Source: a virus
Virus record (IMG/VR): IMGVR_UViG_3300032084_002184
Span: 1-33,450 of that record
Length of the DNA: 33,450 bases
Direction: 5' to 3' (one strand)
The translations under genes and the position numbers were made by a program. Shown in pieces: positions 1-27,091 of this stretch. The stretch's first letter is position 1. Each line of letters opens with the position of its first letter. The notes under the pieces were generated by a model. The model saw nothing but the letters and a program-made list of their open reading frames with translations, did not search any database and was not told the origin of the DNA.

Positions 1-3000
1 TCACCAGCACTCAAAGCAATGACAGGCCAACTCGCTACAATGGTAGGTATTAGTGCTTTGACAGGACTTTTTTCAGGCTTTTTTAGCTTTTTTATGGGTT
101 CGGCTGAACGAGACAGGGCTATTCTACAACAACAATTGCAACAATTAGAGAATTTAAATACATTGGTTGGTAATCAGCAGTCTATGGATGTAAGAAATGA
201 AGCTTTCGCTGATAGACTAATACCTGCTGTAGATGCAATCGAAAATTCTGGTTTGTCTATGGATCAGAAAGAAATGCAATTTGGTAGATTTAGAACTCCT
301 GGTGGTAGAATGAATGATGCTAATCTTTTAGGAGAGATGACAGCTCGTCAAGCTATCGGAGCAGATGCAGACCTAGAAGCTGTAGGACAGAATCAGTCTG
401 TACAAGAATATTTAGATAGTCTAGATCCTACACAAAGACAAAAAGCTAACGCAGCTATTGATAAAGCTCAAGGAGAGTTATTAAGAAGTACTTTTATAGA
501 AAAAAGAAAAAGAGAAGGAATGGATGAAGTTGAGGCTTCGAGAGTTTATGATTCTGATCCTCAGGCTGCCAAAGCAGAGGCTCAAGAAGCTCTTGGAGAA
601 AAGTCTAGGGCTGAGGGATTAGCTAAACGTATGCAAATTATCAATAGGTCTATTAATAAATTTACTCTTAATTTAGTAGATGTAATGAATCGATTAGGCA
701 GCGTTATGAATCGAACAATCGGAGATTTAAATGCTAATATAGATAAAATGAGTCAGGTTTCTGATATTTACAGCGGAGGTCAAGCTGGTTCGCTAAATCC
801 TAACGAAGATAATGTAAGAATTTTATCTAATATTACTGCTGCTAGTAATGCAGAATTAGCGCAAGCTGTTGGTCAAATTAATAAAGATCTTGGAGATACT
901 AAAGAAACCCAAACGATGGCAGGTCTTATCAAGGGTATTCAAGTCTTGCAAAAAGAGCTGCCTTTAATTCTTAGACAAACAGGAACTGGTGGAGATTTAG
1001 ACGCTGGTTCAGAAACTAGTATTCGTGGTAGATTAGACACTATGTTTCAAGGTTTAGATATTGGTGAAAATTTAAAAAGAGATCTTAAGAGTAATGTTAT
1101 TAATTTTATTAATGATAAAACAGGTTCGAGACAAGGAGACTCTTTTGAAGATTTAGCAAACTATATAGATGGACTGAAGGAATTAGATGAGGCTGCTGAG
1201 CAAGCCAGAGCAACTTTTGAAAAGTATGCTAAAGAACAAGCTGATTTTAATAGAAAACTTGGAGGCTTATCTAATCAACTAAGCGCTCAACTATCTAAAC
1301 TTGCAGATAACGCTATTAGAGTTAAAGATATTCAATTAAATAGTGCTTTACAATTATCAGAAAAATTTAATAAAACATTATCGTTAAGTAGTCTTAATGC
1401 ACCATTCATGAATTCTGTATCAGGATTAACCGGAGGTACCACAGATCCTGAAAAAATTGGTAGAGAGTTAGCTTCTGCTATCGAAAGACAAAGACAAATT
1501 GAAGCTGATCCTAATTCCCAAACGACTGCTTTAGGCTCTGGTGAAGTTGCTAAATTAACTTCTAAAATTAATAAATATCAAAAAGCTTTAGATATATTAG
1601 CAACTAGTACAGATAGAGCATCTAATGCATTGAAAAAGATTGATGAGCAACAAAGAATTTCTTCTGGACGAAGAAGTGGTGTTATGAGTTTTCTTTCTAA
1701 CATAAATAACCCAGAAGCTTTGTTAGGTATGAGGCAAGAACAACAGTCTTATTCTAATGTTATGGCAGGTACAGGAACTATTACAGATATTGCTAGAGGT
1801 ACTAATAGTCTTAATATGATGGAGTCAACTCAAACTCCTGAGCAGTTCCAGAAAACGCAACAAAAATTCTTTGAAAATGCTATGCGTATTTTAGAGGCTA
1901 ATGGTGCTAATCCCGCTGTCTTTAAACAATTTAGAGAATCATTCGCTGGTGATTTCGCCGCTCCTGATGCAAATCCTGCTGTTAAACCATTTATTGATGC
2001 GTATCAAGAAGCTGCTAGAATACAAACAGAAGCTGTTAAGCAACAATCTAATTTATTAAATAGTGGAGCAGTAATAGCAGCGGATACTTTAAAGAAAAGC
2101 GCAGACGCTTTCGCTACTAAAATGAAAGAAGCCACTGCAGAAATTGTTAAAGAGTTTAACGCAGTTGCTGATAGACTAGGTTTAGGCAAACCTAAGGACT
2201 CTAATAAAATGTCTAGTGGAGGTGTGGTATATGCTTCTGCTGGTCAATTTGTTAATTTTACGCCTAAAGGCACCGATACTGTTCCTGCTATGTTAACGCC
2301 TGGTGAGTTTGTTGTTAATCGATCAGCAACTTCTAAGAATTTACCTTTATTAAAATCTATTAATAGTGGTGGCTATAGTAGTGGTGGTAGTGTTGGTTAT
2401 TATGCTGATGGTGGACAAATCGGACCAGGTTTAAAAACTGTTAATCGTAATTTTAATCTTTTATCTCCTTATCCAGAAAAAAGTTTAGACAATTTCCAAG
2501 AATATAAAGATCATGTACCATATGGGTATATGGATAGGTATTTTGGAAATAAAGATAGTGCTGTTTCTGAACGAGAGCTTAAATCAATGAATCAAGCTAT
2601 TCAGAAACATCAAAAACAATACTTTACCACAACTAAGGTTAATCGCTATAAAAGCTTAAGATCATTAGTGCCTGAATGGGAGAAAAACGAGAAAAACCAA
2701 GACAAACAAGCTAGTTTTTGGGATTGGATTACAGGGTCTAGTCCTGATAGAGGCATGAAATTTAATTCTGGTAATTTTAAAAGTGTTAAAGATGCTAAAA
2801 TTTTTGCTGGAACAATGGAAGCTGCTCATGGTATTCCTTTAGGGCGGGGTGTTGGTACTGGGGATATAGGAAGTTCTACATATAGTGGTAGATTTTATGG
2901 TGGCGATTCTTCATTTCCTATGGATAGTGCTACAAGTCAAGGATTTGGAGAGCTTTTACAACAAAGAATTATACAATCTCGTTCTACAGATTGGGAAGCG

Positions 3001-6000
3001 TTTTTCTATGGTTTAGCTTCAAAGGCATTGCCTACTATTGGAGGTATTATTGGCGGTGGTATTGGTGCTGTTTTAGGTGGTACGGCTGCGGTAGCTTCAG
3101 GAGGTCTGGGTGCGTGGGGTGTTCCCATCTTTACTGTAGCAGGTGCTATGGGTGGTAATATGGCTGGTCATGCGGTTAATAGTTTTGCATACAGTATGTT
3201 ACCTGATTCATGGCAAAAGCGTATTGAGCAAAAGGTTAATGACAATCCTGGTTCGTATAATGCCGGACAATGGTTAGGCTTCGGAGCTGATGTGGTAGCA
3301 GGTGGTATGGGCGCCAATGCTGTTGCGAAAGGTATTAGCAGATCTATACCTCCAAGAGCAATAGTTCAACAATTTGTCAGACAGGGTGGTACTACAGGAG
3401 TTAATGCGGCTCGCCCGACTGTAGAAGATGCTATTGATATGGCTACAAAATCTGCTGGAACTAAAGCTGCTAATAATTCTAGAAATATTGGTAATAAAAT
3501 ACCAGTTACAGGTCAGCCAAATGCTACATTAAATATTGGTTCTGTAGATGATATATTGAGTTTACCACCAGGAATAAAACCATCTGGAGGAGCTAGACCT
3601 ACTGGGTTACCTGGAGGAGGAGCTAGACCTACTGGGTTACCTGGACCTACTGGGGCATCTGGTGCTACTGGTGGTGCAGCATCTGCTACTGCTAGAGCTG
3701 GTGCAATTCAAATGAAAAAATTAGCTATGGCTCTAGAAGAAACTTTGTATGCAGGTAAACCGCAACAATTAGTAGATGATATTATGTCTCCTAATGGTAA
3801 AGGTATATATGAGGTATTAGGTAGAGACCCTCAAATTCAAAGTGCTACTTTTAGAAAATTACAAAAACTTCTACATCCAGATATGATGAGACATTCTAAA
3901 ATGTTTGATGGTATGGGTTTAGATGATGCTGCAATAAAACTTTTCCAAAAACGATTGAGCTCAATGAAAACTGTTTTAGATAATAGTCTCATGCGAGCAG
4001 ATTATGATCAGCTTTTAGGGAGAGGTCATTATGCTGACGATCTTTTAGATAATTTATCGCGTAATGGATTTAATGTTAGACAACTGTTGCAGCCAGGGTC
4101 GAGAGCTGCCGCAGCAACACCTAAACCTAAACCAGGTAGCCAAGCGCCGCCAAAACCAAAGGCTGAATCACCAAAACCTAAACCAGATCAACCTAAACCG
4201 GGTCAGCCTAAACCTAAACCAGATCAACCTAAGCCAGGGCAATCTTCTAAACCTAAGCCAGGACAATCGTCTAAACCTAAGCCAGGACAATCGTCTAAAC
4301 CTAAGCCAGGACAATCGTCTAAACCTAAGCCGGGTGAAACACCTAAGCCGAGTCAACCTAAACCACCTACTGGTAGCGGGTCAAGGACTTGGTCACAATT
4401 TCTGGACGATTGGATGGGTGGTAGCGTTGGTCGGGGTTACTATACCGGTTCAGGTATTGGTGAAATGCTTAGTGGCATGCTCGGTTTTGGTTTAACACCT
4501 GATCCGTCTAAAAGATCATCATCACAAAGCGAATCACCTAAGCCTTTACCTGGTGGTTATCCAGATAAATCTTCTAAAGCTAAAGATCAAGCAGCTAAAG
4601 ACGCTATTGAGCAAATGACAGAAAAAACCAAAAGAACATTTGGAACAACAGATAGGGGTATTATGGACCAAGTTCAATTTGGAACAGACGGTCAATACAA
4701 GTTCGGCCAGGTTCAAAATGCTGCAGCCTCTTTAAAGCTAAAAGATCCACTTAAAAGAGTTAATTTCTTATATAGAAATATTAGTATTCCTGAATTTGAA
4801 CTAGGTATGGGTGGTCAGGGTTCTACAGGCGTAGCTGAGGGTCAGTTATTGACACAAAAACAGCGTAAAGATGCCGAAGAAGAATATTTATTCATTAATA
4901 AAAAAGTCTCAGATATGTATAGTAACCCTTCTGCTCATGGGAATACCTTACAAGCTTACCTCCAAAGAAGAGGTCAGCTTAAGACTATGCTAGATAGTGA
5001 TTTTAGAGCTCAATATAATCTTGGTGTTCCTACAGGAGATAAGCCTACATTTAATCTGAAACCTCCTGTAAAACCCAATACAGAACCGCCTACAGAGAAA
5101 GAAAAAAGAATGCTTAGAGATGGTGTTATAGATGATAATGCCACTCTTCAAGGGCTATTAGCACAGCAAGATACTGGAACAGCAAATAGAAAAAACTCAA
5201 CTGTTATGGCTGGTTTTACACAAAGATTTTCAGATCTTGAAGAGACTAAAAATACAGAAGGCGCTAGCTTTGCTCTCTTAAAGAAATTTAATTCTGTCAA
5301 ATTAGATTATATTAAAGCTTTTGGTCAAGTTAAAGGAGTTAGTGATAAAGCTATAGACCCAGGTTTATTAAGCGTTGCTTCTACTCAAGAACAGGTAGAT
5401 GCTGAAGTAAAAGCTTTAAAAACAGATATATCTTCTAAGACTAATAATAAAGATTGGATGGCTGGAAACTCACAAGCTCAAGCTACAGATAAGCAAAAGA
5501 TTAAAACAAAAGCAGATATAGCAAAAATGGTTGCAAAATATTCTGAACAATCTGGAGTTACAGATCCTAAAAAACTTAAAGATTGGTTACAGAAACAATC
5601 AGGAATTCGTCAAGAGCTTAAAGGTAGACATTCTTTATGGGATAATTATTATACAAAAGAAAAGGAATTTAAAGACAAAGAATTAGAACATTTATTCCAA
5701 ACAGAACGATGGGGATATAGAGATGAGTTAAAGAAAAACCCTGAAGGAAGAATGTATGGTGATGGTAGTATGGGTATGAATAGTTTAGAGTATTTACTAT
5801 TTAATCATCCTGCTAAAGTTGCTCATAATTTTATTAATCCTTTTAATCAAAACAAAAGTACGGATGAATTATTATACGGGGCTCCTCTAGGCACTGTTAA
5901 ACCAGAAACACATGCTACCAGAACTCAAAATGCTATTAGAAAATATCTCAAATCTTTTGGTAAATCTTTAGGCATACAAGCTCCTATCGATGAAAACACC

Positions 6001-7995
6001 AATGTCGATGAATGGTTTAAGAATTTAGATCCTAATTTAATGACAGACTTAAATGCTGAAGGAAATCTAAACCAATTAATGAAGGTAGGCAATGAAAGTC
6101 AAGGCGCTACCATGTTAGATATTCTCAAAAATATGTATCAGCCAGGTAGTCAAGAAGTCACAGACAATGTTGCTGCTCGTTTTGGTCTTTGGTCTGTGGT
6201 TGGTGCTGATGATGCTAGAAACAAAGATTTTGGTAAAGAATATCAATCAGAATTCTTAAGAAGACTATACAAATATGTGGAGAGTACATCTACACAGAAA
6301 AGTAAAGAGTCTTTCCAAATGACTGAAAGTGTTGATACATATCTTAAGATGATCGATGCTTTAGCTGCTTATACGGGTCAAATGGATCCTGCTATTTATG
6401 GTAAAGCTTCTGATAATTTCGGACCTTTAGTAATTCCAAAACAATTAAAAGGTAAAACCGAAAAAGAACAAATGAAAAATCTTTCTAGAGTTATTGGGAG
6501 AGATTTTTATAAATATACAAGATCAACATTTGATTATGAATTTGGTGGCATCACGAGTGCTGAAGATTATGGTAAGGTTGGAGATCGCTTAGGTATTCAG
6601 GGTTACAGTCCAGAAGATCTTAGAAGAACAGTTTTTGCTGATAGAAATACTTTAAGACGTATATATGAGCGTAAAGCTTATAGCGTTGGTGGAGGTTTAA
6701 CAACTGCTGATACTTTAGTTAATACTGGTATGGCCACATTATTTAATGCTAATAAAGACAAAACCGTTGATTCTGGGGATTTAGCTAATTTTTATGATTT
6801 AGATGGTAATGTCTTGAGCGAAGGCACTACTATAATGGGTTTGATATCTAAAGCTTTAGATTTTGGAAAAAGAATGCCTGTTGCCAATAGACAGGGTATG
6901 ATTGATTATGCTAAAGACTTCGATTTCAAGGGAAACCTAGCAGACGATAGTTACGCTAAATATGAGGAAAATCTTGATAATAATTTACACGCTTTAAAAT
7001 CCACATATAAACTTTGGGATTCGCTTGTTTATTACAGTAAGCCTAACCCTGGAACAACCAAAGCAGAGACTGTTGATTTAAACGCAGCAGGACCTGTTCT
7101 ACAATCAGCTACGGCGGGAGGTTCTATAAACATTGCTGGTACTCAGATTCCTTCAGTAGATTTCTTAAGTAAGTATCAAAACGCATTGGAAACTACTGGC
7201 GCTAAGGCTTATGGTCAAATTGTAGAAGCTGGTAGTATTTTCAATGATCATGTAGGAGGTAGTAGCAACTTTACATTAGCTGGTGCTCCAAATCCGTTTG
7301 ATAATCCAGAATTTATTGCTTTAAAGAAATTCAAACAATTACAAGAAGTTGGTACTGTTAATGCTGCTACCGGTGGTCATATTTCTGGAGGTATGGGTGC
7401 AGGCAAAGCGTCTCTAGTAAACTACAAACCTGTAGGAACCGATACTGTACCAGCCATGCTCACCCCAGGTGAATACGTTATCAATAGAAGTGCAACGCAA
7501 CAGCACTTACCTTTATTAAAAGCTATTAATAATGGTGGACTATCTTATGCTAGTAATGGAGGAATGATTCAACCTCAGTATAAAAACATTGGAGGTTTAG
7601 CATCGTCTGCTCTTAGTTATATGGGTGGTGGAGGTTTGGATATGGGGAATGCTTCCAGAGTATTTGACGGCTTCGTGTCAAGTTTTAGTAAAGAAATTGC
7701 ATCTTTTGGTGGTTTAATTAATAATTTAGCCAAAGTATTCCCAGCACTATCCGGTCCTGTTAATAATTTTGGTAATCATGTAGATAAGTTAGCTAAATCC
7801 TTAAATGATCTGCAAAATATTGAGATTAAAGGACCGAACATCCCAGAAACCATTAGGTTGAATAGTGATGCTATTAGGGTTGAGATAGACTATGTTCCTG
7901 GATCTAATAAGCTCTCACCAGATGCTGAGGATAAATTAGCAAGCCAGGTAGCAGCTAAACTTAAGACATTAGTTGATTTGGGTAGAATAAGTTGA
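1..7995 (+). CDS. Tape-measure-like tail protein with internal J-domain (5' partial)
   Basis: The frame is open back to base 1 and the first ATG is at 19, so the true start lies upstream; 2664 residues are visible. The call rests on size, position before tail genes, a hydrophobic stretch at about 45-100, coiled-coil-like helical sequence over the first 2 kb, and two Gly-rich motifs typical of tape measure proteins (TDTVPAMLTPGE followed by V-x-N-R-S-A-T) at about 2215-2420 and 7370-7560. Between them lie a Gly-zipper membrane-like region (about 3000-3190), a short collagen-like PTG/GGA stretch (3586-3660), a J-domain-like module (about 3781-4032), Pro/Lys-rich repeats (4110-4370) and one EF-hand/dockerin-like loop (6745-6780). 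Known role of the family: it sets tail length, occupies the tail lumen and often enters the host during DNA delivery. Linking the internal modules to those steps is inference. No peptidase or lysozyme domain was recognised. Confidence 0.8.
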   Translation, partial: SPALKAMTGQLATMVGISALTGLFSGFFSFFMGSAERDRAILQQQLQQLENLNTLVGNQQSMDVRNEAFADRLIPAVDAIENSGLSMDQKEMQFGRFRTPGGRMNDANLLGEMTARQAIGADADLEAVGQNQSVQEYLDSLDPTQRQKANAAIDKAQGELLRSTFIEKRKREGMDEVEASRVYDSDPQAAKAEAQEALGEKSRAEGLAKRMQIINRSINKFTLNLVDVMNRLGSVMNRTIGDLNANIDKMSQVSDIYSGGQAGSLNPNEDNVRILSNITAASNAELAQAVGQINKDLGDTKETQTMAGLIKGIQVLQKELPLILRQTGTGGDLDAGSETSIRGRLDTMFQGLDIGENLKRDLKSNVINFINDKTGSRQGDSFEDLANYIDGLKELDEAAEQARATFEKYAKEQADFNRKLGGLSNQLSAQLSKLADNAIRVKDIQLNSALQLSEKFNKTLSLSSLNAPFMNSVSGLTGGTTDPEKIGRELASAIERQRQIEADPNSQTTALGSGEVAKLTSKINKYQKALDILATSTDRASNALKKIDEQQRISSGRRSGVMSFLSNINNPEALLGMRQEQQSYSNVMAGTGTITDIARGTNSLNMMESTQTPEQFQKTQQKFFENAMRILEANGANPAVFKQFRESFAGDFAAPDANPAVKPFIDAYQEAARIQTEAVKQQSNLLNSGAVIAADTLKKSADAFATKMKEATAEIVKEFNAVADRLGLGKPKDSNKMSSGGVVYASAGQFVNFTPKGTDTVPAMLTPGEFVVNRSATSKNLPLLKSINSGGYSSGGSVGYYADGGQIGPGLKTVNRNFNLLSPYPEKSLDNFQEYKDHVPYGYMDRYFGNKDSAVSERELKSMNQAIQKHQKQYFTTTKVNRYKSLRSLVPEWEKNEKNQDKQASFWDWITGSSPDRGMKFNSGNFKSVKDAKIFAGTMEAAHGIPLGRGVGTGDIGSSTYSGRFYGGDSSFPMDSATSQGFGELLQQRIIQSRSTDWEAFFYGLASKALPTIGGIIGGGIGAVLGGTAAVASGGLGAWGVPIFTVAGAMGGNMAGHAVNSFAYSMLPDSWQKRIEQKVNDNPGSYNAGQWLGFGADVVAGGMGANAVAKGISRSIPPRAIVQQFVRQGGTTGVNAARPTVEDAIDMATKSAGTKAANNSRNIGNKIPVTGQPNATLNIGSVDDILSLPPGIKPSGGARPTGLPGGGARPTGLPGPTGASGATGGAASATARAGAIQMKKLAMALEETLYAGKPQQLVDDIMSPNGKGIYEVLGRDPQIQSATFRKLQKLLHPDMMRHSKMFDGMGLDDAAIKLFQKRLSSMKTVLDNSLMRADYDQLLGRGHYADDLLDNLSRNGFNVRQLLQPGSRAAAATPKPKPGSQAPPKPKAESPKPKPDQPKPGQPKPKPDQPKPGQSSKPKPGQSSKPKPGQSSKPKPGQSSKPKPGETPKPSQPKPPTGSGSRTWSQFLDDWMGGSVGRGYYTGSGIGEMLSGMLGFGLTPDPSKRSSSQSESPKPLPGGYPDKSSKAKDQAAKDAIEQMTEKTKRTFGTTDRGIMDQVQFGTDGQYKFGQVQNAAASLKLKDPLKRVNFLYRNISIPEFELGMGGQGSTGVAEGQLLTQKQRKDAEEEYLFINKKVSDMYSNPSAHGNTLQAYLQRRGQLKTMLDSDFRAQYNLGVPTGDKPTFNLKPPVKPNTEPPTEKEKRMLRDGVIDDNATLQGLLAQQDTGTANRKNSTVMAGFTQRFSDLEETKNTEGASFALLKKFNSVKLDYIKAFGQVKGVSDKAIDPGLLSVASTQEQVDAEVKALKTDISSKTNNKDWMAGNSQAQATDKQKIKTKADIAKMVAKYSEQSGVTDPKKLKDWLQKQSGIRQELKGRHSLWDNYYTKEKEFKDKELEHLFQTERWGYRDELKKNPEGRMYGDGSMGMNSLEYLLFNHPAKVAHNFINPFNQNKSTDELLYGAPLGTVKPETHATRTQNAIRKYLKSFGKSLGIQAPIDENTNVDEWFKNLDPNLMTDLNAEGNLNQLMKVGNESQGATMLDILKNMYQPGSQEVTDNVAARFGLWSVVGADDARNKDFGKEYQSEFLRRLYKYVESTSTQKSKESFQMTESVDTYLKMIDALAAYTGQMDPAIYGKASDNFGPLVIPKQLKGKTEKEQMKNLSRVIGRDFYKYTRSTFDYEFGGITSAEDYGKVGDRLGIQGYSPEDLRRTVFADRNTLRRIYERKAYSVGGGLTTADTLVNTGMATLFNANKDKTVDSGDLANFYDLDGNVLSEGTTIMGLISKALDFGKRMPVANRQGMIDYAKDFDFKGNLADDSYAKYEENLDNNLHALKSTYKLWDSLVYYSKPNPGTTKAETVDLNAAGPVLQSATAGGSINIAGTQIPSVDFLSKYQNALETTGAKAYGQIVEAGSIFNDHVGGSSNFTLAGAPNPFDNPEFIALKKFKQLQEVGTVNAATGGHISGGMGAGKASLVNYKPVGTDTVPAMLTPGEYVINRSATQQHLPLLKAINNGGLSYASNGGMIQPQYKNIGGLASSALSYMGGGGLDMGNASRVFDGFVSSFSKEIASFGGLINNLAKVFPALSGPVNNFGNHVDKLAKSLNDLQNIEIKGPNIPETIRLNSDAIRVEIDYVPGSNKLSPDAEDKLASQVAAKLKTLVDLGRIS
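3781..4032 (+). other. J-domain-like module (HPD motif) inside the tape-measure-like protein
   Basis: The encoded segment starts near Y-E-V-L-G (Y at 3808-3810), continues with FRKLQKLLHPD (3850-3882) and ends with RADYDQLLGRG. This matches the DnaJ J-domain helix by helix: YEILG, then Y-K-R-L-x-x-x-Y-H-P-D, then a third amphipathic helix (here A-A-I-K-L-F-Q-K-R-L onward), then R-A-A-Y-D-Q-Y-G. The HPD triad, which in J-proteins stimulates DnaK/Hsp70 ATPase, is intact at 3874-3882. Low-complexity linkers lie on both sides, so it looks like a separately folded module. The match is seen in the sequence; recruitment of host DnaK is inference. Confidence 0.75.
4237..4332 (+). repeat. Four tandem 24-bp repeats (PGQSSKPK coding)
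   Basis: Four in-frame 24-bp units at 4237-4260, 4261-4284, 4285-4308 and 4309-4332. Units 2 and 3 are identical; unit 1 differs at two positions and unit 4 at its last base. Each encodes an eight-residue Pro/Lys/Ser unit, and looser copies of the same motif lie just upstream (4170-4235). They form a flexible basic linker directly after the J-domain. Perfect tandem units of this kind can vary in copy number by slippage. Confidence 0.9.
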
Positions 7996-8048: not shown

Positions 8049-9644
8049 ATGTATAAAGTTCAAAATGAAACCACCACAGAAAATGTATCTACACAGGCTA
8101 TAACTCCCGGAGGAGCTTCTGTAAGTGTTAACGGATCTAATTTATCACCTTCTCCTTTTGTTTCTATTTCTATAGACCAGTTTAGGTCTGGAGAATTAGT
8201 TTTGGGTGGAGTTATGAATGTGTCTTTGAACGGAACTGTTACAGGTGATAGCTTCTCTGAGGTTGTGAGTGCAGTTAAAAATGTTTTAGCTATAGGTAAG
8301 TCCGGGGATTGTGTAAATGTAAATATTAACTGCGGGGGAACTCAATTAGTAAATGGTTATGGTACAATTAAAACTATTAGCGCTAATGAAGGACCTGATC
8401 CTACTTGGGTTCAAGTTGCAACATATAATATAGAAATAGAATTATATGTTAATGAATCAGATTTAGTTGTTAGACCTAATACTAACGCCAGCTCACATGT
8501 AACTGCTAATGAAATTATTAAAGATTTGAGTGAGTCTGTTTCATTAAACTTAGATAATGATGGTTTTGAAACAGATAATATGAATGGTAGTTATGTAGGT
8601 AAAGCTCATGCCAAATATAATTTTTCTATTAGCGCAACAGGGGCTGCTGTGGGTTGCTCTGCTGCCGGTAAATTAGTTGGTATTGAAGCAGCAGAACAGG
8701 TTTTACAAAGAAGAATTAATTCTATTAGCAATGGCAATATAAGTAGCGGTCTGGGTAATACTCCGAATATCTCAAGTCAATTAAGCACATACCATAGTGG
8801 TCAAAAGTTTGCTCACGTTAGAAGTGTAGACGTAGACCCTGTTACCGGAACTGTTAGTGCCTCTGGAGAGGTTATAATGAGACCTTCCGGCTCTCTTTTC
8901 CCTCAAGTTTTTATAGATGTTAGTGTAGACTCTCGCAGTGATAGCACTCAGGTTGGTAGGGTGGTTGTAATTTCTGGTACTATAGAGGGTTTACATGCTC
9001 ACGATTTTAGCTCTATTATTAGTAACGGAACTTTTCATGGAGCAAGCACTGATAGAGTTGGTGTTGCTATTAACGCTTACAACACTTTGAAATCATCTTT
9101 TCCTTCTATTGCCAACGCTTATCAAGAGGCAGAAATTGAAGATGCTTGTTCATTATCAGATCTTTATAATATATGCTTTTCTCAGGTGGATCAAACAGAA
9201 TGTACTATGAGAGAAGTTAATAGTAATGTTACTAGAAATTTTGGTACTGGTAGTGTTTCTTTTACTACAGAGTTCTCTACTGTTCAAAACTGTACTATAG
9301 TAGGAGCCGCTAAAGTAGAGTTGGAGTGTACTCACACATACCCCACAGATGTATTCGCAGAATTTGTGATACCGTTCAGGTCATCAGGCCCTTTAACTCA
9401 AGATTTAGGCACATCAACCAAGGAAGTAATTAGTTGCACAGGTTCTGCTCAAGTAGAAAACCAAGGCTGTGACTCAAGAGATTTATCTAATATTTCTAGT
9501 TGTCTAGAAGGAGCAGTTGATAGTAAGGCTTACGGAGAGGGTGCTGATGCTAGTTGGTATATTACACAAAGAACCAAAACTTATTCGAATACCGGTGTAT
9601 TAAGAATAACTAAGGAATGGACCAAGAGATACGATTGTTCTTAA
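8049..9644 (+). CDS. Virion structural (tail/baseplate-type) protein, Cys-rich
   Basis: 531 aa, preceded by an AAGGA Shine-Dalgarno and a very AT-rich 53-base gap (7996-8048) holding the palindrome TAATATATATTA. No family was recognised with certainty. The first 130 residues read as beta-strand-rich sequence ending in an I-x-I-E-L-Y strand, as in tail-tube or distal-tail proteins. The middle is Ser/Gly/Asn-rich. The last 170 residues carry many Cys (for example C-S-L, I-C-F, E-C-T, N-C-T, E-C-T, S-C-T, G-C-D, S-C-L) and the protein ends D-C-S. Its place directly after the tape measure gene fits a distal tail or baseplate component, which is inference from order. No signal peptide is seen. Confidence 0.55.
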   Translation: MYKVQNETTTENVSTQAITPGGASVSVNGSNLSPSPFVSISIDQFRSGELVLGGVMNVSLNGTVTGDSFSEVVSAVKNVLAIGKSGDCVNVNINCGGTQLVNGYGTIKTISANEGPDPTWVQVATYNIEIELYVNESDLVVRPNTNASSHVTANEIIKDLSESVSLNLDNDGFETDNMNGSYVGKAHAKYNFSISATGAAVGCSAAGKLVGIEAAEQVLQRRINSISNGNISSGLGNTPNISSQLSTYHSGQKFAHVRSVDVDPVTGTVSASGEVIMRPSGSLFPQVFIDVSVDSRSDSTQVGRVVVISGTIEGLHAHDFSSIISNGTFHGASTDRVGVAINAYNTLKSSFPSIANAYQEAEIEDACSLSDLYNICFSQVDQTECTMREVNSNVTRNFGTGSVSFTTEFSTVQNCTIVGAAKVELECTHTYPTDVFAEFVIPFRSSGPLTQDLGTSTKEVISCTGSAQVENQGCDSRDLSNISSCLEGAVDSKAYGEGADASWYITQRTKTYSNTGVLRITKEWTKRYDCS

Positions 9645-9661: not shown

Positions 9662-11602
9662 ATGAATAAAAAATATGAAATAAACTACACTTTTCCTAAT
9701 TGCTTATCAGAATATAGTGGTACTATATCTATCACAGATTTAACGAATGGTAATTTATCCATGACATGGTTGAATTTACCAGAAACAGCTGTGATAAATA
9801 GTAAAGGTATGTCTGTTAATAATTTACAATGCGGCATATATGAATTGGATATATACGACACTAGCACAGATCAAAACCACAAAGAAATTATAGATATTAC
9901 ATGCTTTAACGACCTAACCCTCGATCTTGTACAAATAGATGACTTAAATTGTATAAATGATATGGGCGTTTTAAATATTAGTTGGTCTGGAGGACAGGCT
10001 CCTTATAAAGTGTCTTTAAATTCTGATAGTGTCTCAACTAACGATACTCATTTATCTTATGATATTATAGCTAATAAAAAATACAAATTAACTATTAAAG
10101 ATAGTAATAACTGCATACTGAGCAAATCAGATATTATAAAAACTATTAAACCCATGAAAGTTGAAATAGGTTGGGAATCTATTAAACATAATGGTGGTGT
10201 TTCTGGAGATGTTTTTTATAAAATTCAAGGAGGTGTTGAGCCATATAAAGTAGCTTGGTTTACCCAAAAAGATACCAATCATCCATTAATTATAAATCAA
10301 AATCATATTCAAAATAAACTACAAAGTAATCATTATAAACTAATGGTAACAGACTCTGTTGGATGTTCTATAGATAAATCTTTCTATATTTCAGAACCAC
10401 CTCCTATTATTGTACAAACTAAAGAATCTGCTGATTATAGTTTTAAAGCAACTTATCCTAATATCAAATCAAAAAGTTTCTATAATTTAATATTATTAAA
10501 TAATTATGATAAACCTATAAAATATTTATTAAATAAAAAAATTACTTTAAAACATAAAAATATTAATAGTAAACAAAAAATTATTATGAATTATGGAAAT
10601 ATAACACTAGATGGTGTTGATTATCAGTACTTTTATATTAATCCAGGAATACCTGCTCTTAAAAGCTCGAACTCTGAATTGATAATAGAAGATGGTGATG
10701 ATTCAGAAGCATTGCTTTTATCTCATGATATAAATTTTAATAATCAAAATAAATTGCTGGTAGGTTCTGTTATATTATCAGATATTTATGATTATATATT
10801 TCATGATAATGATATAGTAGAAATTATAGATAATGATGGAAATACGCTAAAAACTTGTATAGATCAAGCACATAACCAGGCTCAATTGTATGACAATATT
10901 AATGCTTCTACAGTAATTAATTTTATTAATAGGGATAATTCTGAATCAGAAGATATTCTTAAATTATTAAATAATAGAAAATCACTTAATAATAATCAAA
11001 TTAAATGCTTAACAACAAAATATAATAATAAGATGGGTGAACTACATTGTTTAATTCACGGTGGGGACAAACAGACTCTTAAGTTAGATATTCTATATTC
11101 AGATGGTAATGTTGATACTTATGATATAGACAATAATAGTATTATTTTAAAGAATTTAACACATGGTACGTATAGAATTAAAGTTTATGATAAGTATAAT
11201 ATAGCGCATGAATATAATAGAATATATACAGGTGAATATTATGAATTCGACATTATGTCTTCTTTTGATGAAGAACAGGAAAATTGTAAGATAGCAGCTA
11301 TATCTAAGTATAATTTAGATCCTAGTTTTCTGAATAGATATGATCAAACTCCTAGTAAATTATTATTTACATCACCAGAATTCAAAAACGGGGTATTAAT
11401 TAATATATCTCCTTCAGAGTCTTGTTATGATATTATTGATGATGAAGGTAATGTTATAGAGGATTGTGGATATAAGGTTATAAATTTGGAATATGGTAAG
11501 TATAAAATATATGCACAGCACGAAGGACATGAATCTGTTGAAAAAGTGTTTTTCGTAAATTCTCCTAAGGAATTAGTAACTATAGTATTAGAAAAGGAAT
11601 AG
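9662..11602 (+). CDS. Tail protein with SprB-like Ig-fold repeats
   Basis: 646 aa. The first 245 residues form three repeats (about 10-85, 90-160 and 165-245) with the SprB/PKD-like pattern: opening Cys or Gly, then G-G-x-x-P-Y-K-V (GGQAPYKV, GGVEPYKV), then a G/K-x-Y-x-L-x-I/V-x-D strand, then a D-S-x-x-C ending. Repeats of this type are known from Bacteroidota surface adhesins such as SprB. The rest is AT-rich and Asn/Asp/Ile-rich with two looser repeats (around 470-525 and 575-640) sharing the ending G-x-Y-x-I-x-V/A. Codon use is noticeably more AT-rich than in the flanking genes. The position among tail genes suggests an exposed, possibly receptor-facing protein, which is inference. The nearest AGGA lies only two bases before the ATG; the AAAGGA further upstream is the likelier ribosome site. 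Confidence 0.5.
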   Translation: MNKKYEINYTFPNCLSEYSGTISITDLTNGNLSMTWLNLPETAVINSKGMSVNNLQCGIYELDIYDTSTDQNHKEIIDITCFNDLTLDLVQIDDLNCINDMGVLNISWSGGQAPYKVSLNSDSVSTNDTHLSYDIIANKKYKLTIKDSNNCILSKSDIIKTIKPMKVEIGWESIKHNGGVSGDVFYKIQGGVEPYKVAWFTQKDTNHPLIINQNHIQNKLQSNHYKLMVTDSVGCSIDKSFYISEPPPIIVQTKESADYSFKATYPNIKSKSFYNLILLNNYDKPIKYLLNKKITLKHKNINSKQKIIMNYGNITLDGVDYQYFYINPGIPALKSSNSELIIEDGDDSEALLLSHDINFNNQNKLLVGSVILSDIYDYIFHDNDIVEIIDNDGNTLKTCIDQAHNQAQLYDNINASTVINFINRDNSESEDILKLLNNRKSLNNNQIKCLTTKYNNKMGELHCLIHGGDKQTLKLDILYSDGNVDTYDIDNNSIILKNLTHGTYRIKVYDKYNIAHEYNRIYTGEYYEFDIMSSFDEEQENCKIAAISKYNLDPSFLNRYDQTPSKLLFTSPEFKNGVLINISPSESCYDIIDDEGNVIEDCGYKVINLEYGKYKIYAQHEGHESVEKVFFVNSPKELVTIVLEKE

Positions 11603-16016: not shown

Positions 16017-16747
16017 ATTATACTCCAGTTGTTAACGTATCCTCGAAATACAGTAGGTATTTCTTCTGTTTTTTGTTGATATCCAGATAACTCTCTAATA
16101 ACCTTCAGAGCGTCCCCATGCAATATGCTTTTTATATTATCTGTTTTTATATCTAATGATTTAATAATTTCTAATACATTAATATCTAATCTTTTAGCTA
16201 TTACATCAATAAAATTGATCTGATTATTAGTAATTTTGGTAACATTATCTGCACCGATGTCGTCTTCTGTAGTATCTACAACCTCTTCAGCAGCAACAAC
16301 TTTTCTTAATCTTAAACCTCGTCGTAATGCCCTACCTTCTGCTCTAGTTTCAGCTACCGCAACAGGATGATTTCGAAAAACCTTGTCGCAATTACCCCAA
16401 TATACATCTGCTGCGCCATTAATAGTTCTAATTCTCAAAGAATCGTTTAAAGATTTATCGTTTAGGTAATAACTTAAAGAGTGTATGACAGTAGCTCTTT
16501 TTTCATTACTTGGTTGAGGAGACTGCACAACTTCTGATGTAGATTCTATAATAACACAATCTAGTGCTAATTCAAATATTCTCCTCAATCCATCGGTTGT
16601 TGGGTTACCACTGATTTTCTCATCTTCCGATAAAAAACCTAAAACATGGTCTGTCCATCCTATATCTGTGATTTTAGGCTCTTCTAGTTTAGTAGCCTTA
16701 GTCGTTGTTGTGGGTTCTTCTTTTTTAACCGCTTTAGTTCTAGGCAT
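16013..16747 (-). CDS. Rad52-like single-strand annealing protein (probable)
   Basis: 244 aa. After a Lys/Thr/Pro-rich N-terminal 28 residues, the core (about 45-155) ends in V-A-E-T-R-A-E-G-R-A-L-R-R-G-L-R, resembling the A-x-T-R-A-x-x-R-A-L signature of Rad52/Rad22-type annealing proteins. It also contains S-E-V-V-Q-S-P and R-A-T-V-I-H-S strands and a G-A-A-D-V-Y-W motif. The C-terminal 70 residues contain a helical I-T-N-N-Q-I-N-F-I-D-V-I-A module, a small domain often appended to phage annealing proteins. A Rad52-like annealer would act with SSB in recombination-dependent replication. The family call is from motif memory, without alignment. The start overlaps the upstream stop by one base (TAATG). 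Confidence 0.5.
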   Translation of the reverse strand: MPRTKAVKKEEPTTTTKATKLEEPKITDIGWTDHVLGFLSEDEKISGNPTTDGLRRIFELALDCVIIESTSEVVQSPQPSNEKRATVIHSLSYYLNDKSLNDSLRIRTINGAADVYWGNCDKVFRNHPVAVAETRAEGRALRRGLRLRKVVAAEEVVDTTEDDIGADNVTKITNNQINFIDVIAKRLDINVLEIIKSLDIKTDNIKSILHGDALKVIRELSGYQQKTEEIPTVFRGYVNNWSII

Positions 16748-17532
16748 TATTTGTCCTCTATTTCTATAGATGTAGTTGAAGATTTGTTTATAGTATTAAT
16801 CGCCTCAATAAGTTTATGGTACAACATTAAAGATCTAGAATTAGAAAAATCATTGGTTTGCTTCACTCTAACTAACTTCCAACCCCTACCTATGATAAGC
16901 CCGCTTTTCTTTTGGTCGTATTTTCGATTTCTATCGAGAACATCTTGACCCCAAACTGGCAGAAAGTGTGAAGGACCATCAACCTCTATTGCTATATTCA
17001 TTGTAGGTAGAAATAGGTCAATTTGCAATTTAGTATTTGCTAATACTTGTTCTTTATGAAATTCTACTTTATATCCGTCTTTGATAAGTTCTTGTAGGAT
17101 AAAGTGTTCAAGCTTCGAGCCTATTTTACTACTATTTCTTACAGCATCATTCGCTTTAGCAAGCATATCAGCTTTTTGCTCTTCGCTTTTTTGTTCCCAT
17201 AATATTTTAGACTTTGCTCTTTTTTCGTCCTTAGTTTTCTGATCGGCCTTCGCCCAATTCTGTAAAATTTTAGTACCTATTTTATCTTTTTCCTCTTGAG
17301 ATCTTTGTTTACCTTTTGTTGGATGTTTATGAACACCCTTTTCTAAGGCATTCTTTTGAGCTTGTGATTTACTTCTAATTGGTATATGAAGTCTCTTTGC
17401 GTCTCGCAAAATCTTATTAGTATAAGTATCAAATTGTTTTGCAATAGCCTGAAAACTTTTAGACTCGTCTAGATATAAGTCTGTAATAATTTTTAATTTT
17501 TCTTTATCGTTTAATGAATCATATTTACTCAT
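16747..17532 (-). CDS. Homing-type endonuclease (VSR-like/EDxHD) with NUMOD3 region
   Basis: 261 aa. Residues 1-55 look like a helix-turn-helix (S-F-Q-A-I-A-K-Q-F-D then K-I-L-R-D-A-K-R-L). Residues 70-125 carry basic NUMOD3-like sequence (K-G-K-Q-R-S-Q-E-E-K-D-K-I-G). Residues 140-235 form a VSR/PD-(D/E)XK-like nuclease core: L-E-H-F-I-L-Q-E-L, then Q-I-D-L-F-L-P (D172), then I-E-V-D-G-P-S-H (E183, D185, H189) and a final W-K-L-V-R-V strand. Proteins of this kind are free-standing or intron-borne homing endonucleases in phages. It overlaps the upstream gene by eight bases, so it sits inside the operon rather than in an obvious intron. No intron structure was seen around it. Confidence 0.7.
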   Translation of the reverse strand: MSKYDSLNDKEKLKIITDLYLDESKSFQAIAKQFDTYTNKILRDAKRLHIPIRSKSQAQKNALEKGVHKHPTKGKQRSQEEKDKIGTKILQNWAKADQKTKDEKRAKSKILWEQKSEEQKADMLAKANDAVRNSSKIGSKLEHFILQELIKDGYKVEFHKEQVLANTKLQIDLFLPTMNIAIEVDGPSHFLPVWGQDVLDRNRKYDQKKSGLIIGRGWKLVRVKQTNDFSNSRSLMLYHKLIEAINTINKSSTTSIEIEDK

Positions 17533-22750: not shown

Positions 22751-24358
22751 CTAGACTTGCCAACATTTCTTAACAATATAAGAATCACGATTTTTAGATT
22801 TATCTAAAGTTATTAATACGGTATTACCTTCTATCAGTAAATCTTTATATTTGATGTATTCTTCTGGAAATATAACAAGATCGGTGATTCCTGTAGAATC
22901 TGCAATTTTAACAAAAGCCATTTCTTGTCCCGGATTTAAACCTCTTTTAGTTTTTATAACATTAATATCACTAACTTCTGCGCCTACGATAGGTGTTTTG
23001 GGACATTTATCATTATTTAGATCTTTACATTCAGAATTAGCCGAGTAAATATCACACCCATCTATTTTATGGCATGTTAAAGAGGTCCCCAAATGAAACT
23101 TTTCGTTATCTGCTATCCATTCAGGAGTATCGTCAAGATTGTAAGGAGGGTTGTTAATGCTTTTAATAATGGAAGATATTATGTTTTTTCTTTTAGCTGT
23201 AATTTTTTTTACGTCATTATTTATTAATTTATCAAGTATTAACGATATCTCTGTGTTTTTATCAATAAATTGTTCAGCTATAGTAAGCTCTCTATCTGTC
23301 AAACTATTTAAACAATCATAGTAAAATAGCATACGATTTCTTGATATAGTTATATTATCTATAGCTCCTACGGATATTAAGGCTTTAGCTGCTGTAGAGT
23401 TGATATGTCTAAGAAATTTATAATATAATTCAATAAATGTTATATTGTCTAATTCTATATTAGATAATAAATCTTTTATTTTTTCAAAAACAGAGTTGCC
23501 AACTCCTTTAACATTTGTTAAACCAAAACATATATTACCTTTAGTAGATATAAAAAAATCTTTTTCGGGTTGTTGGATAGAGGGTCCATATACTTCTATA
23601 TCCATCTGATTAGCATTGCCTATAAGCTCTTGTATTTCTCTCAAAGGATCCATTTTATCTTTAGCAAATTTTAAGTAAGATGCAAAAAAATGTTTAGGGA
23701 AATGAGCTTTAACATAAGCAGACAGGTAGGCGTTGTAAGCATAGCTAACAGCATGGCTTTTATTAAAAGAATATCTTTGAGATTTTTCAATCCAACCAAA
23801 AATCTGCTCAGCCTCATCTTTATTGATAATTTTGGCACTTGATGACTTTTTCATAAAAAGTTTTTTAATTTTCATCATCTCTTCTGGCTTCTTTTTACCA
23901 ATAGCTTTACGTAGCTTATCTGCTTCTGTCAAGTCAAATTCTGCTACATGTTGACATATTTGCATCGCTTGTTCTTGATATACCATTTCTCCATATGTTG
24001 TTTTTAAAATAGGCTCTAAAGAAGGATGAAAGAAATCTATCTCCTCTTGTAAATTTTTCTTATCTATATAATGATTGCTAACAGATTTACCATCTCTGTA
24101 AGCCTCTAAACAACCCGGTCGCATGATACTAATTAGCGCTGATAATTGTTCTATATTTTCTGGCTTAAGTTTTTTAGACATCATTTGACCCAACCTAGAC
24201 TCTAACTGAAAACACCCCTTAGTGTTTCCTTCAGCTATTAGTCTCCATGTTTGTGGACAATCCAAGTCTATTTTCTCTATATCAATATCTATATCGATAC
24301 CACCATCAGCATTTACATCAAAACAGCAGTTGCACTCATTAAAAGATATATGTTTCAT
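22751..24358 (-). CDS. dnaE: DNA polymerase III alpha, C-terminal fragment (fingers, thumb, OB)
   Basis: 535 aa. It begins in the linker after the third catalytic Asp of DnaE: a short new N-terminus, then D-L-D-C-P-Q-T-W, G-C-F-Q-L-E-S-R, I-M-R-P-G-C-L-E-A-Y-R-D-G, then Y-G-E-M-V-Y-Q-E-Q-A-M, K-L-R-K-A-I-G-K-K-K, and S-F-N-K-S-H-A-V-S-Y-A-Y, all standard DnaE landmarks. The C-terminal 90 residues are the OB domain (K-T-K-R-G, M-A-F-V-K-I-A-D, V-I-F-P-E-E-Y). With the 622-aa fragment at 25223-27091 it totals 1157 aa, the length of a complete bacterial DnaE. The start overlaps the exonuclease stop (ATGA). No intein C-terminal motif (H-N before C/S/T) is present at its start. It presumably assembles with the other fragment non-covalently; that is inference. 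Confidence 0.92.
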   Translation of the reverse strand: MKHISFNECNCCFDVNADGGIDIDIDIEKIDLDCPQTWRLIAEGNTKGCFQLESRLGQMMSKKLKPENIEQLSALISIMRPGCLEAYRDGKSVSNHYIDKKNLQEEIDFFHPSLEPILKTTYGEMVYQEQAMQICQHVAEFDLTEADKLRKAIGKKKPEEMMKIKKLFMKKSSSAKIINKDEAEQIFGWIEKSQRYSFNKSHAVSYAYNAYLSAYVKAHFPKHFFASYLKFAKDKMDPLREIQELIGNANQMDIEVYGPSIQQPEKDFFISTKGNICFGLTNVKGVGNSVFEKIKDLLSNIELDNITFIELYYKFLRHINSTAAKALISVGAIDNITISRNRMLFYYDCLNSLTDRELTIAEQFIDKNTEISLILDKLINNDVKKITAKRKNIISSIIKSINNPPYNLDDTPEWIADNEKFHLGTSLTCHKIDGCDIYSANSECKDLNNDKCPKTPIVGAEVSDINVIKTKRGLNPGQEMAFVKIADSTGITDLVIFPEEYIKYKDLLIEGNTVLITLDKSKNRDSYIVKKCWQV

Positions 24359-25053
24359 GTTTTAAACGCATCCTTAAATTTAATTTTTTGACTCAAGCTT
24401 TTATGAAGTTTTAAAAATCTAATCAAGATATTAGCACAATCTTCTACATCTTTAATAGCGTCATGAGCATTATCCTTACTAAGACCTAAATAATCTCTCA
24501 TATTATCCAGAGATAACGATTTGACTTCGGAGATATAGGTTGTCCACATAAACATCACATGTAATAAGTCGATTTTATCCCTGGGGTGAAATAGACAAGT
24601 CTCTCCCTCCCTATTAGTATTATCATATTTTTGACTTAGCCTATTTACAATAGTCATGTCAAACCTGAGTATATTATACCCGCAAGCTATAGGTGCTGTA
24701 AACTGTGATTTTTTACCGCCATAACCTTTATAATGATATTTATCTAAATATGATACAAACTGAGCCCATGATTGTTTCTGTTCCGGATATTTTTTCCAGT
24801 CTTTTAAAATCTGTGCTGCCGATACCGATTTAACCTTGCCGTGCCAATCTAAAATATCAGAATCAGTATAAGGGTTATCTATAGAGCAGTCTTCTAGTTT
24901 TTCGGGCTTGATAAATGTATTAAACTGAGATTTATCAATGATTTCTAATCTAATTGGGTCTACCATCACCGATGATAGTTGAACAGGGCTGCACAGCGAT
25001 GGATCCTTGCCATCTGTTTCAAAATCAAAGACACAAATTTTATTTTTAATCAT
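24355..25053 (-). CDS. DEDDh 3'-5' exonuclease (proofreading, epsilon-like)
   Basis: 232 aa. Exo I is D10-F-E12-T-D, Exo II has N-I-L-R-F-D132, and Exo III is H197-D-A-I-K-D202, so all four DEDD acidic residues and the DEDDh His are in place. It resembles DnaQ/epsilon and would remove misinserted nucleotides for the polymerase. It lies between the two polymerase III alpha fragments and overlaps both neighbours by ATGA, so the three are very likely translated in a coupled way and may form one complex. Confidence 0.9.
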   Translation of the reverse strand: MIKNKICVFDFETDGKDPSLCSPVQLSSVMVDPIRLEIIDKSQFNTFIKPEKLEDCSIDNPYTDSDILDWHGKVKSVSAAQILKDWKKYPEQKQSWAQFVSYLDKYHYKGYGGKKSQFTAPIACGYNILRFDMTIVNRLSQKYDNTNREGETCLFHPRDKIDLLHVMFMWTTYISEVKSLSLDNMRDYLGLSKDNAHDAIKDVEDCANILIRFLKLHKSLSQKIKFKDAFKT

Positions 25054-25226
25054 TTAATCTCTTCTACTTTCTTTTTATATTCGAATAAAACATTTTTGTT
25101 GTTTTCTAAATCGACAGCATTACTTTGTATTTCACAACAACTTTTTTTTATTTCTGGTACCTTCAGATACTCTCTATTTTTATATGTAAATCTTTGTCCA
25201 GTTTTTAGTTTAGAAAAATCTATCAT
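25050..25226 (-). CDS. 58-aa protein between polymerase N-half and exonuclease
   Basis: A short gene read directly from the sequence: ATG at 25226-25224 overlaps the polymerase N-fragment stop, and TGA at 25052-25050 overlaps the exonuclease start, both as ATGA. The protein begins M-I-D-F-S-K-L-K-T-G-Q-R-F-T-Y and continues R-E-Y-L-K-V-P, with two Cys (S-C-C-E), then N-A-V-D, ending in a charged K-K-K-V-E-E-I-K. The pattern F-x-x-L-x-x-G-x-x-F-x-Y with a later N-A recalls a family of tiny beta-rich phage proteins of unknown function. The double overlap argues strongly that it is real. A role in the polymerase complex is only suggested by position. Confidence 0.75.
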   Translation of the reverse strand: MIDFSKLKTGQRFTYKNREYLKVPEIKKSCCEIQSNAVDLENNKNVLFEYKKKVEEIK

Positions 25227-27091
25227 ACTATAGCCTTTATTTTTAGTGTTCTTTGAGTGTGCATTATTTTATCAAGTAAAGCGATACCTAAAATATCGAA
25301 CTTAATAACACCTATAGATTCTAGATCTCCCATTTCGAAACCAGCGATACTTTGTTTTGTCTTAGTATCCCATAACATAGGACATATAGAGCTTAATTCG
25401 TTATTAGCGATTGCGATACCAGCAGCATGTTTAGATTGATTATATTTCGACCCTTCAAGCCTGATTGCTTGTTCAAACCTTTTTGAAAGAGGACCTTGCA
25501 ATTCTCCTTTATCATCTATATAACACCAGTCTTTTAATTTTTTAGAATTATTTTCCAAAGACCATTTGATAATGGAAGCATCTTCCATTTCCTGTAATTC
25601 GTCTGCAATTTTAGCTTCATCAGGAATATTTTTAGTTATACGATTCATTTCTTCAAAAGAAATATTACCGTATACTCTTAAAACTTCCTTCAGAGCCCCT
25701 CTACCTTTAAGTGTATTAAAAGTTATCATTTGAGAAACTTTGTCATTGCCGTATTTATCTTTAATATAATTAATGATAGATTCTCTATATTCGATAGGGA
25801 CATCTACATCAATATCGGGCATAGATATATGAGATTTAGTGTTTCTGCCTGTGTTATAGAATCTTTCGAAAATTAAATTATATTTAAGAGGATCAATTGC
25901 TGTGATACCAATCAAATAAGAAACCAAGCATCCCGCAGCACTACCCCTACCGGGACCAGGCAAACAGTTTTGAGATTTAACATATTCTACAATATCTCTG
26001 ACAATTAAAAAGTAACTTGCAAGGTTTGCAGCTTCTAGAACTTCAAATTCTTTCTTAACCCTATCTACATATATTTGATGTTTATCTTTGGGTATTATGT
26101 CTTTTATTTTTTGCTTCCAACCTATTCTACATAATTCTCGAATATATTCTATGGGGGTTTGTTTGTTTGGACATCTAAAATCTGGAAGTTGTGGAGAGAT
26201 TAATATATTGTAGTCCTCGCAAAGACTGTCTATTTTTAGAGTATTTTCTAATTCTTCCTTGTCGTGTATTTCAGACATCTCTTCAGCCGAAAGTATATAA
26301 TATTTATCGGAAGTAAAGAATGATGACAAGGGAACTTTTTCTTCATTTATTATTTTTTTTGATATTTCAGGAAGTGTTGTCTTTAAAGAACTACATAACA
26401 AAACTCTTTGATCTACAGCATCCGCCATTTCACAGTAATGAGCGTCTATAGTAGCGACTCTTTGTAAATTATTATCTATTGCTAATTGTCTTAGATTTTT
26501 ACCAATAGTTTGTTGATGGGTATTATCTGTGTCCATAAGCTGTATTTCTACATAGACATTGTCTTTACCAAATACCTCTTGCAATTGCTCAATATGTTTT
26601 AATCCTTTATCTTGCCAATTGTCTACTAAGGATTCTTTTTCGAAACTATAAATTTCATTACCTAGAGTAGAACCCGGATGTCCAGATATACATATCAAAT
26701 TCTGTTTATTTATTATTTTTTTTAATATTTGAATATCGAGTCTTGGTTTATGATAAAAATATTTTTCGTTATTAGATAAAGATACTATCTTAATCAGATC
26801 TTGCCAGCCATCATAATTTTTACAAAGGACTACGAGATGTGATAATGATTTTTTATTTTTATCTTTTATTGATGCGTCGCTATTGGTAATATACAACTCG
26901 CAACCCATAATTGGTTTGATATCATTTTTCTTCATGGTTTTATAGAAATCTACATTTCCAGATATAGTACCATGATCTGTAATAGCACAGGACTTAAAGC
27001 CTAACTTTTTACATCTTTTGGCTATTTGTTCAGGTTTGGAGAGCCCGTCCAATAAGCTATAATGACTATGCACATGTAAAGGGATGTACAT
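25223..27091 (-). CDS. dnaE: DNA polymerase III alpha, N-terminal fragment (PHP and palm)
   Basis: 622 aa from the ATG at 27091 (a TTG directly before it is not needed; TGATG overlaps the nuclease stop). The PHP domain opens with L-H-V-H-S-H-Y-S-L-L-D-G and has A-I-T-D-H-G-T-I-S-G. The palm has G-P-G-R-G-S-A-A-G-C-L-V-S-Y, the metal-binding Asp in P-D-I-D-V-D-V (about 426-430), S-K-H-A-A-G-I-A, and the third Asp in I-K-F-D-I-L-G (about 599). The protein stops 23 residues later in the linker where bacterial DnaE continues with I-P-L-D-D. It has no intein N-terminal motif. All three catalytic Asp are here; the fingers and OB fold are in 22751-24358. Confidence 0.92.
   Translation of the reverse strand: MYIPLHVHSHYSLLDGLSKPEQIAKRCKKLGFKSCAITDHGTISGNVDFYKTMKKNDIKPIMGCELYITNSDASIKDKNKKSLSHLVVLCKNYDGWQDLIKIVSLSNNEKYFYHKPRLDIQILKKIINKQNLICISGHPGSTLGNEIYSFEKESLVDNWQDKGLKHIEQLQEVFGKDNVYVEIQLMDTDNTHQQTIGKNLRQLAIDNNLQRVATIDAHYCEMADAVDQRVLLCSSLKTTLPEISKKIINEEKVPLSSFFTSDKYYILSAEEMSEIHDKEELENTLKIDSLCEDYNILISPQLPDFRCPNKQTPIEYIRELCRIGWKQKIKDIIPKDKHQIYVDRVKKEFEVLEAANLASYFLIVRDIVEYVKSQNCLPGPGRGSAAGCLVSYLIGITAIDPLKYNLIFERFYNTGRNTKSHISMPDIDVDVPIEYRESIINYIKDKYGNDKVSQMITFNTLKGRGALKEVLRVYGNISFEEMNRITKNIPDEAKIADELQEMEDASIIKWSLENNSKKLKDWCYIDDKGELQGPLSKRFEQAIRLEGSKYNQSKHAAGIAIANNELSSICPMLWDTKTKQSIAGFEMGDLESIGVIKFDILGIALLDKIMHTQRTLKIKAIV

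Follow-up and report, generated by a model that had tools for sequence, protein, structure and literature searches.

Tape measure proteins are very long proteins that set the length of the phage tail. These proteins are coated with chaperones before the tail tube forms, and the structure of the assembled protein and the trigger of its ejection are open questions (PMC9022992). J domains have been described in phages in several settings. Rki of phage RB43 is a phage-encoded J domain that uses the DnaK of the host; it is a stand-alone J protein whose interaction with DnaK has been demonstrated (PMC3486835), whereas the domain reported here is internal to a tape measure protein and its use of DnaK is predicted. 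Jumbo phages encode DnaJ proteins (PMC7824862), moraphages encode both DnaJ and DnaK, with no tape measure gene identified in them (PMC12619734), and the DnaJ-like proteins of large phages have been suggested to recruit host Hsp70 (PMC7824862, PMC12619734). Other phages carry a tape measure gene plus a separate DnaJ-like gene (PMC3853051, PMC9583779), and there is a report of a DNA polymerase whose central domain is a partial DnaJ (PMC9038755).

Functional modules inside tail proteins are also on record. The tape measure protein of mycobacteriophage TM4 contains a peptidoglycan-hydrolase motif (cited in PMC12619734), a module that attacks the cell wall, whereas the one described here would be co-chaperone-like. 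In the tail fibers of Litunavirus, an Hsp70-system (GrpE-like) domain has been proposed; it resembles a nucleotide exchange factor, not a J domain, and belongs to a tail fiber, not to a tape measure (PMC9786124). Within the accessible text of the open-access literature searched, no description of a J domain inside a tape measure was found, in agreement with the initial annotation of this DNA, which knew of none.

A search with a J-domain query matched 74 of 50,697 phage records, and among the 60 listed no annotation named a tail or tape measure gene (several of these records are unannotated). Eleven of the 60 listed matches were opened, and all 11 were stop-to-stop frames of 204 to 376 codons, unannotated or called hypothetical, with the start of the J domain among the first 45 residues. 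A J domain lying within a tape measure protein is arranged differently from these short frames, and in this it also departs from the DnaJ-like proteins of large phages, as the listed matches are not annotated as tail components. In Tetrasphaera phage TJE1, a 243-codon frame (L162 2001-2189) showed a clear J domain at a place where no gene is annotated, and it is probably a missed gene.

The window, that is, the whole stretch of DNA analyzed, corresponds to an entire IMG/VR record of 33,450 bases. Positions 1 to 7995 (+ strand) form a frame of 2664 codons that is open at the left edge of the window. The same phage was found in a second contig of 165,940 bases (IMGVR_UViG_3300031972_002446, hereafter G001), which aligned with the window in two overlapping stretches of 99.98% identity each and in which the frame comprises 4207 codons from stop to stop, or about 4205 residues from the ATG. 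The first 600 codons of the G001 frame matched PF10145 (PhageMin_Tail) with an E value of 2.9e-22 (80 bits, versus a cut-off of 33.2), and the part of the frame present in the window matched PHROG 25241, a tape measure family, with an E value of 1.3e-9. The large terminase ends about 12.5 kb upstream of the G001 tape measure on the same strand, and the frame is located downstream of the head and packaging genes. Judged from these matches, the window frame is the C-terminal part of a tape measure protein, which bears out the identity first proposed for it. The first of the two alignments showed 4 differences in 17,992 compared bases, at window positions 21, 61, 545 and 786; the domain described below is identical in the G001 contig, and a sequencing or assembly error is therefore unlikely.

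A motif of the form TD[TS]VPA[ML]L[TS]PGE was observed in one to five copies in 11 of 16 tape-measure-size frames (G001 and its relatives; L002, L089-L114). The only annotated phage matched by the window tape measure was EBPR siphovirus 1 (39.5%), and the match covers one place of this motif. Immediately downstream, the neighbor gene at 8049-9641, used as a query, retrieved the same phage only, and the second gene behind the tape measure (ORF 9662-11602, + strand) showed a weak match to Hoc-like head decoration proteins (E, 4e-6). An ORF on the opposite strand (16747-17532) resembled HNH/homing endonucleases. The DNA polymerase III alpha subunit appeared in two ORFs within 22751-27094 (− strand), one with the PHP and NTPase regions (25223-27094) and the other with the finger, HHH and OB regions (22751-24358), so that the split falls before the finger domain; the 232-amino-acid ORF between them has an RNase_T exonuclease domain and is a possible proofreading gene.

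The core of the J-like domain spans positions 3799 to 4020 (+ strand, as are all the features of the tape measure given below) and is supported by profile, shuffle and pair-alignment evidence. According to the translation, a collagen-like Gly/Pro linker is located just upstream of it (approximately 3586 to 3675) and a Pro/Lys repeat linker downstream (approximately 4117 to 4374), confirming the placement between two such stretches given in the initial annotation. An ORF in another frame (4064-4495) overlaps the Pro/Lys repeats. Further upstream, a hydrophobic glycine-rich (glycine-zipper-like) segment, possibly a membrane segment, was found at 2995 to 3201, about 200 residues before the domain, and a TDTVPAMLTPGEFVVNR-type motif common to related tape measures, at 2272 to 2325, is where the aligned segment carrying the domain starts.

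Translation of positions 3661-4140 placed GKGIYEVLG at 3796-3822, FRKLQKLLHPD with its end at 3882, and RADYDQLL at 3994-4017. With helix limits taken from a moderate-confidence AlphaFold2 model, the helix I motif would occupy 3799-3822, helix II 3844-3873, helix III approximately 3925-3981 and helix IV 3985-4020, with the HPD tripeptide (CAT CCA GAT) at 3874 to 3882. The model also predicted an additional helix on the N-terminal side, beyond the limits of an ordinary J domain, at 3760 to 3786 (model residues 7-15). The order of the elements is that of the J-domain family (PF00226), with a helix I motif, a basic helix II ending in HPD, a long helix III and an R..YD helix IV, and the residues preceding HPD are basic both in the window (FRKLQK) and in a homologue from a second phage, G006 (LKLQR). 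Apart from the additional front helix and the location inside a giant tape measure, the domain differs from the family in its spacing, since 17 residues separate the helix I glycine from HPD in the window and 16 in G006, versus 21 in an ordinary phage J domain (L164). The span thus lacks four to five residues, and helix II would be about one turn short. Consequently, of the earlier claim that the motifs occur in the order and at the spacing of a J domain, the reading frame, the motifs and their order stood, whereas the helix I-to-HPD distance proved not fully canonical.

The similarity to known J domains was low when standard family models were used. The Pfam DnaJ model (PF00226) scored 15.3 bits on positions 3781-4032 (E, 0.022), with a range over the runs of 13.1 to 15.3 bits and E values of 0.022 to 0.059. 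These values are below the curated cut-off of 27.8 bits, a detection threshold and not a biological feature, and the domain is for this reason called J-like here. DnaJ was the sole Pfam family reported for the domain at an E value of 10 or less, in searches whose HMMER filters discard most matches above an E value of about 0.1. In NCBIfam, HscB ranked first (E, 0.052), followed by DnaJ_bact (0.13) and, nearly level with it, by a CCT chaperonin subunit (0.14). By themselves, the Pfam and NCBIfam scores would not settle the identity of the segment as a J domain.

A hidden Markov model of 13 phage J domains gave 14.6 bits to the window domain, compared with 8.3 bits for the best of 5000 shuffles of its own sequence, and 7.4 bits to the whole long tape measure frame. 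For the G006 domain, which had no Pfam match at an E value of 10 or less, the same model gave 4.9 bits, a score exceeded by 11 of its 5000 own shuffles. When an alignment of the two domain sequences was compared with the 13 phage J domains by hhalign, a probability of 90.5 and a pairwise E value of 1.4e-6 were obtained, with HPD aligned on HPD.

A two-way search covered 195 loci with 8856 ORFs; 14 of these loci had been fetched as phage J-domain loci. With the profile of the domain, the highest-ranking ORF other than the tape measures was the phage J protein L153 (E, 0.017), followed by the J protein L154, which tied with a non-J ORF, L190, at 11.3 bits. With the phage J profile, the best match after the 14 J loci was this tape measure (E, 0.35). 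The search of the PDB with the pair profile yielded six matches up to an E value of 10, in which a ribonuclease inhibitor (4per) was first (E, 0.089), residues 21-90 of 1wjz were second, with HPD on HPD (E, 0.14), and 2ys8 was sixth (E, 1). We take 1wjz and 2ys8 to be J-domain entries. With a single sequence as the query, six weak PDB matches were obtained, none of them a J domain. The DnaJ model, run over whole records at an E value of 1 or less, gave no match in any of the three sets (0 of 1, 0 of 1 and 0 of 41); it missed the studied domain too, and others like it are possible.

The shuffles, the two-way profile searches and the homologue ruled out a chance occurrence of the motif. Several lines of sequence evidence and a homologue that keeps HPD thus support the presence of a diverged J domain inside the tape measure protein, and true J-domain ancestry of the segment is very probable.

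Structure prediction was less decisive, and the antiparallel hairpin of helices II and III, which the initial annotation had proposed as a check, was neither established nor contradicted by it. The single-sequence model of the domain had a pLDDT of 47 and was uninformative, the 50 structural matches listed for it being helical bundles and other folds, with no J domain. When AlphaFold2 was run with the two sequences, one of the five models reached a pLDDT of 69.1 (pTM, 0.59), while the other four remained between 41.6 and 49.0. The best model included helices at residues 21-26, 35-44, 46-50, 62-80 and 82-93, with HPD at residues 45-47; its helices follow the J-domain order, with HPD at the end of helix II. 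Foldseek against the PDB placed the J domain 2lgw first of six matches, with an E value of 4.9 and a root mean square deviation of 8.2 Å, and VIA-align placed it fourth of eight (Z, 2.3); over the two comparisons the deviation was 8.2 to 8.3 Å, a poor superposition. In BFVD, none of the 20 matches had an E value under 2, and one of them, with an E value of 3.8, was named as a J-domain protein.

The G006 homologue is located at the corresponding place in a tape measure frame of 5855 codons and is 31% identical to the window domain over query residues 20-121 (E, 3.2e-10), with an intact HPD. In the pair alignment, 33 of 129 columns were identical, and the densest window of nine columns was KLQ[KR]LLHPD (8 of 9); an HPD-covering window reached this value in a fraction of 0.0003 of 20,000 column shuffles. 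The tripeptide is encoded by CAC CCA GAC in G006, which departs from the window at two of the three codons, so that the tripeptide was kept while the DNA changed.

To establish the distribution of the domain, relatives were collected by two routes. The terminase led to 80 loci, in which the G001 and G002 terminases are identical, and 41 of these 80 records, mostly the longer contigs, were searched. The N terminus of the tape measure led to 25 records, all of which were searched with the two-sequence profile. With six records common to both sets, 60 were searched, many of them fragments in which the relevant part may be missing. The domain was present in 3 of the 60 (G001, G006 and G060), and G006 and G060 are the same over the 20,285 bases compared, so that the domain is known from two distinct phages, the window record being a further copy of G001. 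A candidate in G031 was set aside (E, 0.0208), given that it has an internal stop and lies in a 77-codon frame. For the terminase at L003:3173-5206, IMG/VR contains at least 600 relatives; those among the 80 listed are mostly about 70% identical, and the best match in an annotated phage, Microcystis phage MaeS, is 24.9% identical. These terminase relatives make up a large lineage, in which tape measure frames reach 5855 codons.

The search was also extended beyond these relatives. In the viral contigs, 30 stretches of DNA fitted the pattern GKG-x-[YF]-[ED]-x-L-G, and HPD followed in three of them, again G001, G006 and G060. The domain had no match at an E value of 1 or less in 50,697 phage records. 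In viral contigs, the domain and the downstream part of the tape measure, used as single queries, retrieved the same phage only, and when the species genomes were searched with the domain alignment, none of 73 pattern matches was confirmed.

The segments on both sides of the domain align in G001, G006 and G004. This last phage is a close relative, with a terminase 85% identical to that of G001 and 71% identity over the first 690 residues of the tape measure, and the domain is missing from it: its alignments leave out G001 residues 2808-2915, and a Pro-rich linker occupies that place. Thus, in the records searched, no homologue was found that had lost HPD while being otherwise conserved, since G006 keeps the tripeptide and G004 is devoid of the whole domain. 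The flanking segment was found in five records, three with the domain, G004 without it, and G009, which ends within the segment. Presence of the domain did not follow the relatedness of the N termini, as G006 is 68% identical to G001 in this part, while several relatives without a detected domain are 77 to 82% identical and others 57 to 63%. This patchy pattern would indicate that the domain was lost repeatedly or moved between phages. On this sequence evidence, the J-like domain is a real and unusual feature, carried as an optional module by the giant tape measures of a phage lineage known here from metagenomes.

With regard to function, both the recruitment of DnaK and the choice between assembly and ejection are matters of inference. 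We tentatively favor a model in which a diverged J domain held between flexible linkers recruits host DnaK to the tape measure that contains it, mainly for tail assembly. Docking of host DnaK would involve helix II together with HPD, and loading would occur in cis because the domain is part of the client chain itself. In the least certain step, DnaK would matter mainly in the cytoplasm, where a chain of 4200 to 5900 residues, including its hydrophobic glycine-rich segment, awaits wrapping by tail-tube subunits. Assembly is favored because domain, DnaK and ATP would meet there without passage through a membrane. The HSP70 model had no match in the eight phage records searched, all of which may be fragments, and the DnaK partner would accordingly be that of the host. 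The absence of the domain from the equally long G004 tape measure (4356 codons) shows that proteins of this kind have no general need for it.

An unlikely reading is that the domain acts during ejection. The tape measure would leave the tail C terminus first, the inner membrane would retain the glycine-rich segment, and the J-like domain would reach the cytoplasm and recruit DnaK to pull or trap the protein and help the DNA inward. In agreement with it, the order of glycine-rich segment, linker, J-like domain and linker is the same in both phages, and the location of the domain about 200 residues C-terminal to the segment is such that it could reach the cytoplasm if the protein exits with its C terminus leading. 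For phage lambda, it is reported that the tail tip holds a C-terminal helix of the tape measure (PMC10721106), and that during injection the tape measure associates with ManYZ at the inner membrane, being labeled by a TurboID fusion of the inner-membrane protein ManZ (PMC13190303). However, entry of the tape measure studied here into the membrane or the cytoplasm is conjecture, and the domain would have to travel, perhaps unfolded, inside a narrow tube, which in T4 is 4 nm wide (PMC9022992).

Neither does hydropathy single out the glycine-rich segment. It aligns in G001, G004 and G006, and its Kyte-Doolittle maximum over 19 residues in G001 was 1.67, against a threshold of 1.6; four other places in the G001 protein also passed, one of them with a higher value (1.79). 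The segment was the only passing place in G004, a phage that has it without the J-like domain, and it fell below the threshold in G006. Pam18/Tim14 is a membrane-bound J protein in mitochondrial protein import. It is similar in that a hydrophobic segment, a linker and a J domain follow in that order and would act beside a translocation channel, a likeness of arrangement only, and different in being a cellular protein. By this analogy, a membrane-proximal J domain on an ejected tape measure might recruit host DnaK to form a motor that pulls or traps the protein, the viral equivalent of the mitochondrial Hsp70 import motor, which we consider quite unlikely.

It is also rather unlikely that the segment is a relic or a look-alike, that is, a helical spacer descended from a J domain or resembling one that no longer works with DnaK. 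The sub-threshold profile scores, the short helix II, the weak score of the second member, the patchy presence and the poor structural match would all be in accordance with such a spacer. Nevertheless, conservation within a pair of sequences that are only 31% identical peaks at KLQ[KR]LLHPD, which would be expected to be lost first in a relic; moreover, the changes in two of the three HPD codons are silent, and the basic residues before HPD were retained in both phages. A role in host takeover or counter-defense, in which the domain would compete with host J proteins for DnaK or mislead a DnaJ-based sensing of phages, is very improbable, for although such roles are discussed for phage J proteins, and it is reported that an E. 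coli NLR-like defense protein needs DnaJ (PMC12619734) and that Rki stabilizes host sigma-32 (PMC3486835), the domain is here fused to a structural protein, and short phage J frames would be a better format for them.

If the segment were a relic, it would be no more than an oddity among the modules exchanged in the linkers of tape measures. The solubility of very long tape measures and the crossing of the inner membrane by tape measure and DNA are both unsettled, and a working J domain in a tape measure, if true, would tie the host Hsp70 machine to one of these two steps.
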